Source: an uncultured Ignavibacteria bacterium (lineage in GTDB: Bacteria; Bacteroidota; Ignavibacteria; Kapaibacteriales; UBA2268). Taken from it: 53,979 nt of DNA. The notes below the pieces were generated by a model. The model was not told the origin of the DNA. It saw only the letters and a program-made list of their open reading frames with translations, and did no database searches. Positions 4,499 through 6,510 of the stretch are shown piece by piece. The first letter of the stretch is position 1. Each line of letters opens with the position of its first letter. Location of the stretch: the NCBI GenBank assembly GCA_903862655.1, contig CAIOZA010000148.1, positions 1 through 53,979 of the forward strand, in the 5' to 3' direction. The position numbers and the translations under genes are program-made.

Positions 4499-4685
4499 AA
4501 TTTTTTTGAATATTTCAATATATAATTATTTAAATAAAAGAATGTGATATTAGAATTCAAATTATTAGCTAGTCAAAATATATTAAAAAAAATTATATTA
4601 GCAAATGACCAAATATATTTATATATAAATATGAATTGATTTTTTGATTATTAAAGACTGATTATTACTGAAGTAATATAGATTT

Positions 4686-4718
4686 TTTGAAATATTTGTA
4701 AGCGTTGTCTTACTTTCG
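4686..4718 (+). promoter_or_regulatory. Promoter of the structured RNA
   Basis: TTTG (4686-4689), a 21-nt spacer, then TACTTTCG (4711-4718), one mismatch from TAnnTTTG. A start 4-6 bases downstream falls at about 4721-4724, exactly where the 5' strand of the long RNA stem begins, which supports both calls. Confidence 0.55.
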
Positions 4719-4720
4719 TT

Positions 4721-4860
4721 CTCCTGTTAAAATCGTCAATTATTATGTCTGAGAACGGTAAGAAGGTACGCTCCGGAAACGGGGCGTTTTCCTTTTTGCT
4801 TTCAGGCAGGGTGTTTGACGATACCTAACAGGAGAGCATTTAAGCGGAAATGCCCTTTTT
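4721..4860 (+). ncRNA. Candidate independent structured RNA, rod-shaped, unclassified
   Basis: The ends CTCCTGTTA (4721-4729) and TAACAGGAG (4826-4834) are perfect complements, followed inward by ATCGTCAA/TTGACGAT. Further in, CTGAGA pairs with TTTCAG, AAGG with CCTT, and ACGCTCC with GGGGCGT (G-U included), closed by the purine-rich loop GGAAAC. The whole folds as one interrupted rod of 114 nt, followed directly by an intrinsic terminator. Size and rod shape recall bacterial 4.5S (SRP) RNA, and the loop begins GGAA, but the conserved SRP flanks (CAGG before and GCAG after the loop) are missing. A 6S-like RNA or a leader/attenuator for the broken gene at 4909 are alternatives. The RNA call rests on promoter, fold and terminator agreeing; the identity is unknown. 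Confidence 0.55.
4836..4860 (+). terminator. Intrinsic terminator of the structured RNA
   Basis: GCATTT (4836-4841), loop AAGCGG, AAATGC (4848-4853), then CC and five T. The stem is short but the T-tract is well placed. Confidence 0.6.
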
Positions 4861-4908
4861 AATATAAATCGGGATAAATAATTTAATCAATTTATCAAGA
4901 GGTATGTC

Positions 4909-6510
4909 ATGAAAAAGTTTCTGTTTTTAATTATTTCAATGTTTGTTTGTGTCAAATTTGCTACTGCAGATGAATTTTCTCTTATTTGTTGTGATTATTT
5001 TACAGTATCAACCGAAGTTGTTGATACTTGATGTGTAAAGGTAACACTTCATAATCCATTTTGTGGTGATCCTATTATCATTTTCACTCAATGGGATCCA
5101 ATAGTTGGAGACTATGTAGTTCTTCATCGGGATTCAATAAATAGAAACGGCAGTAGTTCATTTATTTTTTGCCCAAATGATTCGACAAAAGTTGTAAAAT
5201 ATAGAATCAAATAAAACCATCATAATGATCCTAATACACCATATTGTCCGAAGGGAGATGGATTTTATGAGGGTTTCACGATGTTCACAGGGGAAGTTAA
5301 TTTATCTGACTGTTGCCCGTGTCCCACTAACCGAGATAGCTGGTTAACTTATGTGGGTAAGCGAGACAGAAGTTGTCCATCGGGTAGTTGCAGAGTCTTT
5401 TTAACCGGAATAAATTTTCCCGAAAATATTACCTGTTACAACAATTATATGATTGAATATCCGAATCAGACGATGTCAGGAATCCTAAATTTAGAAATGA
5501 ATCCTCCTTGGACTAAATCTTTCTGCATTGGTAGTGGAAGTTCAACTTTCAGAATATTTCTTCTTAAAGGAAGCTATCCAGGTGTGGATGATTGTATAAT
5601 ATCAAAAACAGTCAGCTGTGATTCAACCGTTGTAGAAGTTGATACAACTACTTCAATTTGTCCTTTAGATTGTCCAGAGGCTTGGTCAATTGAATCTTCC
5701 AGATTCTATACTTTGAGTAATGGATGCAATATTAGAGTTTACTATAGGAGTAGGATTGCTTGTCCACCTTCTAATTATCAAGACCTGCAAGTAACAAAAA
5801 TTATATATTTTAATAATAATTGCTTGTCTCTGACAGAAAAGGAACTATACCAAAAAGCGGTTTATAGACTAATTGAAGAAGACCCAATGGGTTTTAATCC
5901 TCGCCCAAAAACAATTGGTTGCTTTGATACATGGAGAATAATGAATGCTTCATGTTGGAAAACTGAACTTATGGGTGGACCATTCGGAGAAACTGTAATA
6001 GTTAAAATAATGTGTAAGGACTCAAACTGCTGCATCCAAAGGTATATGGTTTGTAGAGACAGTACGCAAACACCATCTTTAAATATAGTCCCAATTGGTA
6101 ATCCAATAATACCTAATCCAATAAATTGTTCGGTACTACCAGATCAATTAACAAATAAAATGCCTTGGGTATATTTCCAAGGTTGTCATACAACATGTGA
6201 TTGGCTTCAAATGGAACATTATTGGGATCCTATTACAATGAAAACATCCTTAAATGGAACAATTGAAAACTTTAAAGGATTACTGGTTTTAAATCAAGGT
6301 TCAGTTCTATTCAACTGTCCGAAGAGTACTTGCAAAATTCAGATTGATATTTTCAATTTACTCGGACAATCTATCTATTCATTCAATGAATCTTCTGGTG
6401 AAGCAACGAAAGAAATTGATATTTCAAACGTTATCAATACAAAGGGTTTATTTTTCTATAGAATCTATATAGATGGAGTATTGGCTGGAACAGGCAAGAT
6501 TATTAAATAA
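4909..6510 (+). pseudogene. Cysteine-rich T9SS-secreted protein interrupted by two in-frame stops
   Basis: From the ATG at 4909, preceded by AGAGG at good spacing, a signal peptide (MKKFLFLIISMFVCVKFATA) leads into a cysteine-rich protein. The frame is broken by TGA at 5029-5031 (codon 41) and TAA at 5212-5214 (codon 102), yet continues in the same frame with the same composition to 6510. The segment from the ATG at 5281 alone is 409 residues with about 25 Cys, with pieces such as CCPCPTN, SNGCNIRVYYRSRIAC and CHTTCDW. The last 75 residues (IFNLLGQSIYSF, then GLFFYRIYIDGVLAGTGKIIK) are a T9SS type A sorting domain. No indel is needed: each stop is one base change from a sense codon. Calling only 5281-6510 a gene would give a protein without a signal peptide. 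Alternatives are sequencing error or read-through. Function unknown. Confidence 0.75.

Follow-up and report, generated by a model that had tools for sequence, protein, structure and literature searches.

Introduction

Attenuators of the trp type are leaders of four segments, which pair either as 1:2 and 3:4 or as 2:3, with the 3:4 stem lying beside a T-run. Riboswitches with a terminator platform are 5' leaders in which conserved internal-loop strands stand between covarying helices and the folds are mutually exclusive; they can be multicopy and can stand in tandem. Among the structured RNAs of the Bacteroidota, FopS is multicopy (14), is about 65–70 nt long with a single-stranded 5' stretch and a terminator, and acts in trans (PMC11697453), and the trans-acting GibS is 145 nt long (PMC7366714); in the portions of these two papers drawn on here, neither RNA is described as the leader of a gene. 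Pedo-repair (RF01715) is typed as Cis-reg in Rfam, and Table 1 of Weinberg et al. 2010 lists it for Pedobacter and marks 'cis-reg?' with a '?' (PMC2864571).

Here we describe an element in a 53,979-nucleotide contig of an uncultured Ignavibacteria bacterium (CAIOZA010000148.1; this whole stretch is referred to as the window). A first-pass annotation had read it as an independent rod-shaped RNA with its own promoter and terminator, and had offered three identities for it: a lineage-specific regulatory RNA, a diverged SRP-like RNA, or a 5' attenuator for a broken gene at 4909. The element resembles trp-type attenuators in its four segments, its alternative pairings and the T-run beside 3:4, but differs from them in that no leader peptide was noticed, segment 1 is placed at the extreme 5' end, pairing 2:3 gives a long rod whose internal loops are conserved, and the same leader precedes unrelated genes. 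Two observations would argue against a leader peptide of the trp type: copies differ in length, and segment 1 is 5'-terminal. All of the riboswitch features named above are shared by the element, including one tandem pair (at locus L184), but its copies lack a common downstream pathway. A literature search of openly accessible articles, supplements aside, found no description of the element. We consider it probable that it is a cis-acting 5' leader controlling the entry of RNA polymerase into the next gene, and the evidence for this and for other readings is given below.

Results

A rod-shaped RNA with an intrinsic terminator

The rod at 4699–4860 is a genuine structured RNA. The minimum free energy of 4700–4870 is -72.6 kcal/mol, whereas 200 dinucleotide shuffles average -39.1 (sd 3.8) and not one of them is as low (z -8.8). 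Both the positions and the fold bear out the long interrupted stem of the first-pass annotation, closed by CTCCTGTTA (4721–4729) and TAACAGGAG (4826–4834), and the intrinsic terminator proposed 3' of the rod is also present, as a hairpin GCATTT/AAATGC followed by CC and the T residues at 4856–4860. The parts of the element are listed in Table 1.

The promoter requires revision. It had been placed at TTTG-N21-TACTTTCG, with a start near 4721, but TACTTTCG (4712–4719) is part of RNA segment 1 and pairs with about 4752–4761, a pairing that covaries among relatives. The Bacteroidota -7 promoter consensus is TAnnTTTG, and comparison of 75 family copies places an AT-rich stretch able to hold such a box just before 4699. 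The likely promoter is this stretch, ending at 4698, and the transcript in the window would probably start near 4700–4706 and not at 4721. Promoter elements at -7 and -33 are described in Bacteroides thetaiotaomicron (PMC7366714).

Table 1. Features of the leader element and its downstream gene in the window
Feature	Position	Strand	Basis
AT-rich stretch AAATATTTG, candidate -7 box of a Bacteroidota-type promoter	4690..4698	+	A/T-rich positions, G at -1 in 75 family copies
Whole leader RNA element (covariance-model match)	4699..4860	+	R1 and R2 scores
Segment 1, 5' strand, partner of segment 2 in the split fold	4699..4722	+	Duplex -16.8 kcal/mol in the window; matched better than permuted pairs in three sets
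P1 5' strand of the rod	4722..4729	+	Covaries, up to 6 standard pair types per pair
P2 5' strand of the rod	4732..4739	+	Covaries
Segment 2, common to the split fold (with segment 1) and the rod (P3 end, P4, P5 5' strand; with segment 3)	4752..4774	+	Covariation, permutation test, window folding
Segment 3, P5/P4 3' strands in the rod, partner of segment 4 in the split fold	4781..4798	+	3:4 duplex -21.6 kcal/mol in the window; z -16.3, -11.6 and -10.9 against permuted partners
GGT, can pair with ACC 4823–4825 around the P2 3' strand	4810..4812	+	T with ACC or C with GCC as third base in 35/35 class and phylum copies
P2 3' strand	4815..4822	+	Covaries
ACC, partner of GGT 4810–4812	4823..4825	+	GGY/RCC counts
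P1 3' strand	4826..4833	+	Covaries
Segment 4, terminator stem region: local hairpin (GCATTT/AAATGC) or pairing with segment 3	4834..4855	+	Covariation, permutation tests, window folding
T-run of the intrinsic terminator	4856..4860	+	T-run within 3 nt of the 3:4 stem in 126/142 rows
Downstream gene, secreted Cys-rich protein, broken by two in-frame stops	4909..6510	+	Translation: stops at codons 41 and 102, frame otherwise continuous

The element is multicopy and occurs in at least two classes

Among 60 genomes searched at the DNA level, 15, all from the window's own family, contained similar stretches, several of them in multiple copies. The covariance model R1 was built from A2, an alignment of 26 full-length copies; left out of A2 and its predecessor A1 were L027, in which the T-run is not in reach, and L014 and L018, which are truncated leaders that retain the 5' part only and have a decay-like appearance. 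Within the window's family R1 detects 79 places, spread over 17 of 54 genomes with up to 14 copies per genome; it also matches 39 of 245 genomes of the class and 29 of 395 in a sample of the phylum, the three genome samples overlapping. A further model, R2, for which 35 copies from the class and the phylum were used, matches 60 of the 237 genomes of a second Bacteroidota class at 126 places; searches with both models were confined to Bacteroidota. The element is thus present in at least two classes, and the description 'lineage-specific' does not hold. The window element scores 164 bits with R1, of whose alignment the window copy is part, and 118.3 bits (E 5e-24) with R2, which was built without it; the only other R2 stretch in the window has 13 bits (E 0.74). 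By R2 there are two clear copies in the window's genome, that in the window (118 bits) and one at C21:52214-52372 (73 bits), together with a weak stretch of 22 bits.

Three sets of copies were used for comparison. A4 holds 76 of the 79 family places found with R1 (L090 was left out as truncated) in 79 rows, three places being entered twice; A3 consists of 35 loci from the class and phylum R1 searches; and A6 comprises 29 matches in 28 newly returned loci (L179–L206), from the 126 places in the second class. Counts of orientation, gap, terminator-hairpin energy, GGY/RCC and nearest neighbours refer to distinct elements.

A DNA pattern search of genome contigs returned 41 stretches, 16 of which hold the element by R2, all on MAG contigs titled Ignavibacteria, Bacteroidetes, Bacteroidetes/Chlorobi group or just bacterium. 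The remaining 25, including two from Aequorivita, have no R2 match at E 0.1 and were taken as chance terminators. At L184 the two leaders stand in tandem on the minus strand, at 1501–1661 and 1785–1944 and 123 nt apart, and a simple frame call found no same-strand gene nearby. L025 lies at a contig end, and there, by eye, the sequence ahead of the leader is a mirror of what follows it, which may be an assembly artefact.

Covariation of the rod

Compensatory changes among relatives, a check proposed in the first-pass annotation, are abundant in both A2 and A3. In A2, 86.5% of cells pair and double changes occur in 31 of the 48 pairs, with 173 double-change cells compared with 57 for shuffled and 34–48 for slid structures. 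The wider A3 copies, in an alignment fitted to the structure, have double changes in 46 of 48 pairs (429 cells, against 127 shuffled and 56–78 slid). G-U pairs stand at many positions, as at one P5 pair that is C-G in 15 and U-G in 11 of the A2 copies, and these favour an RNA over a DNA palindrome. Helix sequences vary freely and the internal-loop strands are conserved, with GAAAA and RCC between P1 and P2, and ATTTT and GGY between P2 and P3. The variable but matched P1 and P3 may prevent cross-pairing among the leaders of one genome.

The element is a leader of accessory genes

The orientation of neighbouring genes was scored by one rule for both strands, using open reading frames alone, of at least 80 aa and with the near edge no more than 600 nt away. 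By this rule, 101 of 105 scored copies (from 111 distinct copies) have their next gene on the element's own strand, as do 26 of 28 scored in A6 (from 29), at median gaps of 36 and 40 nt respectively. The upstream gene is on the same strand in 64/91 and 11/23, with median gaps of 235 and 268 nt. Raising the length limit changes the downstream counts to 98/103 and 26/26 at 100 aa, and 97/100 and 25/25 at 120 aa; an earlier scoring with unequal limits per strand, which could favour the same strand, gave 104/106 and 26/28 downstream and 74/106 and 14/29 upstream. Because the downstream gene lies on the same strand at a short gap and the upstream gene does not, the element is a 5' leader and not free-standing. 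Moreover, in 38 of 104 copies the start codon is no more than 30 nt from the element's end, which is too short for a separate promoter, so that these genes should be read through the element's terminator.

These same counts weigh against a self-standing small RNA that carries its own promoter and terminator, acts in trans and has been copied around the genome, although an AT-rich stretch is conserved before the element and a terminator after it, some genomes have up to 14 copies, and Bacteroides is known to possess multicopy sRNA families (FopS, PMC11697453). We regard this explanation as unlikely. It counts against our preferred reading, a leader controlling transcription of the adjacent gene, that no common downstream theme is evident from Pfam, NCBIfam and PADLOC searches of 104 downstream proteins, Pfam and PADLOC searches of the 26 later ones, and ten proteins by name. 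Among the 104 are 13 with Por_Secre_tail, up to 10 WD40-like propellers, four thioester-reductase-like proteins, and restriction-modification proteins that include at least the type III restriction enzyme of L095 and the methylases of L097 and L145. The later 26 include a type IIG enzyme (L187), type III methylases (L191, L193, L194), a type I methylase (L204), two RibD_C proteins and two response regulators; that of L189, which had been read as a methylase, has no PADLOC match. The protein downstream of L135 is a retron-type reverse transcriptase, whose frame starts 452 nt after the element, a gap that would fit the retron's own noncoding RNA. In annotated plasmid records of Bacteroides ovatus and Parabacteroides distasonis, the leader lies 56–59 nt before a dihydrofolate-reductase-family gene. 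The leader is therefore associated with accessory genes and with no single pathway. The nearest neighbour of a leader by identity is in the same genome in 28 of 76 cases and precedes the same downstream family, as judged by eye, in 15 of 35, figures that point clearly neither for nor against leader and gene travelling together.

Pairings that exclude the rod

Besides the helices of the rod, the data support three further pairings: 1:2, 3:4 and GGY:RCC. When matched and permuted partners are compared, the 1:2 pairing has z values of -11.1 (A4), -10.5 (A3) and -8.8 (A6), and its 5' part alone gives -6.9, -7.4 and -4.2 in the same order. None of 2000 permutations was as good for either 1:2 or 3:4 (z values for 3:4 are in Table 1), whereas the control pairings A:C, A:D and B:D range from -1.9 to +3.1, with A:D in A6 borderline (71 of 2000); the permutations ignore relatedness, which acts on the controls too, and the A4 tests (n 78–79) count the three duplicated places doubly. 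Since A6 was collected with R2 and had no part in building it, both 1:2 and 3:4 are repeated there. Around the P2 3' strand, the A3 copies divide into 19 with GGC/GCC and 16 with GGT/ACC; the 76 distinct A4 rows have 66 GGT/ACC, one GGC/GCC, four GGT/GCC and five other combinations, and in A6 the rule holds in 25 of 29 copies and fails in four as counted.

As 1:2 and 3:4 use the strands of the rod (2:3), they exclude it. Each half of the element folded apart makes its own hairpin, the second of which ends at the T-run. In 73/78, 29/35 and 24/29 rows of the three sets, the distance between the 3:4 stem and the start of the T-run is at most 3 nt. The two halves of the window element fold at -18.5 and -35.6 kcal/mol, compared with -72.6 for the rod, so that the split form is less stable by 18.5; the corresponding means are -47.3 versus -59.8, -54.4 versus -67.0, and -50.9 versus -63.7, with the split form weaker by 12.5–12.8 kcal/mol. 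Because the rod is the more stable fold, termination would need either a bound factor or co-transcriptional kinetic trapping.

The short local terminator hairpin was also compared with an upstream pairing of its 5' arm. The hairpin is the less stable in 63/74 and 25/35 copies, a point against attenuation, though by medians of only 1.8 and 1.0 kcal/mol, and is favoured in 11/74 and 10/35, ties aside; the two forms lie within 3 kcal/mol in 81 of 109. As weaker evidence, the near-equal predicted energies would suit a switch. In 77/109 copies P1 can also be extended outward, by at least 4 pairs, into the arm of the terminator; this extension hardly covaries (332 and 50 of 2000 permutations were as good), and we consider it a minor possibility. 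We dropped an antiterminator in which the 5' strand would pair with that arm (z +2.8 and -1.5).

A different role for the 3' end would be to act on translation or stability, with the T-run masking an A-rich region at the start of the gene. A matching A-run does follow the T-run just before the start codon in six copies of the later set by eye (L187, L191, L192, L193, L194 and L204), but none was seen by eye in the window's family, and the 3:4 stem abuts the T-run in the manner of an intrinsic terminator in most rows; we think this role quite improbable. In the same six copies, the T-run is followed by GTGGC...ACACAAAA before the start codon, which by eye is a possible second hairpin masking the start region.

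Plasmids, phages and mobility

Of 72,556 plasmid records, four match L196, all confirmed by R2, and their hosts are Bacteroides ovatus, Parabacteroides distasonis and Phocaeicola massiliensis; with L191 as query no plasmid record matched. Primase/helicase and topoisomerase genes lie beside the leader in the plasmid records related to L196. The L196 stretch also contains an Rfam rteR sRNA match, at 38–120, and rteR is named for the conjugative transposon CTnDOT in the reference list of PMC7366714. In the window's family, upstream neighbours are often toxin-antitoxin-like when their translations are read by eye.

The first-pass annotation had held that many copies in the genome would mark the element as a mobile repeat. 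Further copies do exist, one more clear copy in the window's genome and up to 14 in a relative, but they stand before genes. The integron attC recombination site has R' and R'' ends of GTTRRRY / RYYYAAC and lies in a cassette array. Inspection by eye noticed no conserved ends of the attC type, and most copies of the element are on different contigs. An attC-like or MITE-like DNA repeat that folds as single-stranded DNA would be in keeping with the copy number, the plasmid occurrence and the accessory neighbours (restriction-modification, the retron-type reverse transcriptase and the toxin-antitoxin-like upstream frames). Against it are the many G-U pairs, the conserved terminator, and the gap that is short downstream and wide upstream, as well as the lack of any match to two queries among 50,697 phage records or to one exact pattern among viral contigs. 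We judge such a repeat very unlikely, and a transcribed leader remains the reading that we favour.

Relationship to known RNA families

With Rfam 15, the search suggested in the first-pass annotation gave a tRNA and nothing else at gathering across the window. The element stretch, taken to E up to 10, has three poor hits, the best being RalA with 18.1 bits against a cut-off of 170. A diverged SRP RNA is refuted, despite the similar size of the rod and the GGAA in the window's apical loop that had been noted: the true ffs, sought elsewhere in the genome as had been proposed, is a small SRP RNA at G000:C3:12963-13061 (73.7 bits, above the cut-off), so that the rod is not ffs, RF00169 has no match in 4600–4920 at E up to 10, a conserved apical loop with Ffh flanks was not found because the loop differs among the other copies, and the element is multicopy and in leader position.

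When the loci of 40 relatives were compared with Rfam at E 0.5, the only match at an element was that of L111 with Pedo-repair, which was below threshold; the other matches in these loci (tRNA, rteR, Flavo-1 and weak ones) lie away from the elements. L111 aligns with Pedo-repair over its full length, in the same place and on the same strand, with 24.2 bits and E 0.003 in the genome or 0.0017 on the stretch. The layout of the printed Pedo-repair consensus is also similar by eye, with P1, a P2 whose 3' strand has matching CC and GG flanks, a 5' strand able to pair with a bulge after P3, and P4 and P5. However, the score of L111 is far below the Rfam cut-off of 150, and no such match is seen at the window element or the 39 other stretches. 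Twelve chosen genomes were searched for RF01715 at E up to 10 and seven gave matches, of which only that in G183 is at an element; at E 0.01 the family was found in 0/395 and 0/395 genomes, with the controls silent in both. We do not file the element as Pedo-repair, although from these likenesses a common origin is possible, perhaps as a distant relative. Neither the window element nor those in the 40 relatives' loci score above the cut-off of any Rfam 15 family, and Rfam 15 has no entry for the element beyond this possible one-genus relative.

The gene behind the window leader

The gene following the window leader had been described as broken, and its translation contains both in-frame stops (Table 1). 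Its open part, 5281–6507, is similar, at 32–33% identity across about 120 residues, to the proteins encoded after leaders L077 and L078, and the end of its product has a Por_Secre_tail match that is below threshold (23.3 bits against a cut-off of 27). The downstream frames at L077 and L078 are open to the end of the stretch examined. With its gene broken, the window copy of the leader may be a relic; the leader itself is perhaps intact while the gene is lost.

Discussion

The element combines a same-strand 5' leader position, a stem beside a T-run and mutually exclusive covarying pairings, as an attenuator does. Of the three identities first offered for it, the data support the last, a 5' attenuator of the gene at 4909; the independent RNA is opposed by the orientation of the next gene, and the SRP-like RNA by the true ffs elsewhere and the varying loop. 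We propose that transcription starts just upstream of about 4706 to give the four-segment leader. If segment 2 pairs with segment 3, the rod P1–P5 would form, the long 3:4 stem would be blocked, and RNA polymerase would read through into the gene. If instead segment 1 holds segment 2 in the 1:2 hairpin, segment 3 would be free for segment 4, and 3:4 beside the T-run would cause termination. The three pairings rest on covariation, and the direction of the switch and the promoter are inferred; a ligand, a protein, an RNA or folding kinetics are candidate triggers.

More tentatively, and with less confidence than we place in attenuation itself, the element could represent a new class of metabolite-, protein- or RNA-sensing leaders across the Bacteroidota, which would gate accessory, defence and surface genes (restriction-modification, retron-type reverse transcriptase, secreted and lipoprotein genes) by a switch between two hairpins and a rod, with Pedo-repair as one lineage-specific branch. 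Models R1 and R2 make the element annotatable now, and with four covarying segments the mechanism can be tested directly in vitro. If the proposal is correct, one regulatory RNA class governs many unrelated accessory genes in a large phylum, and its trigger would reveal the signal by which these bacteria open or close such genes.
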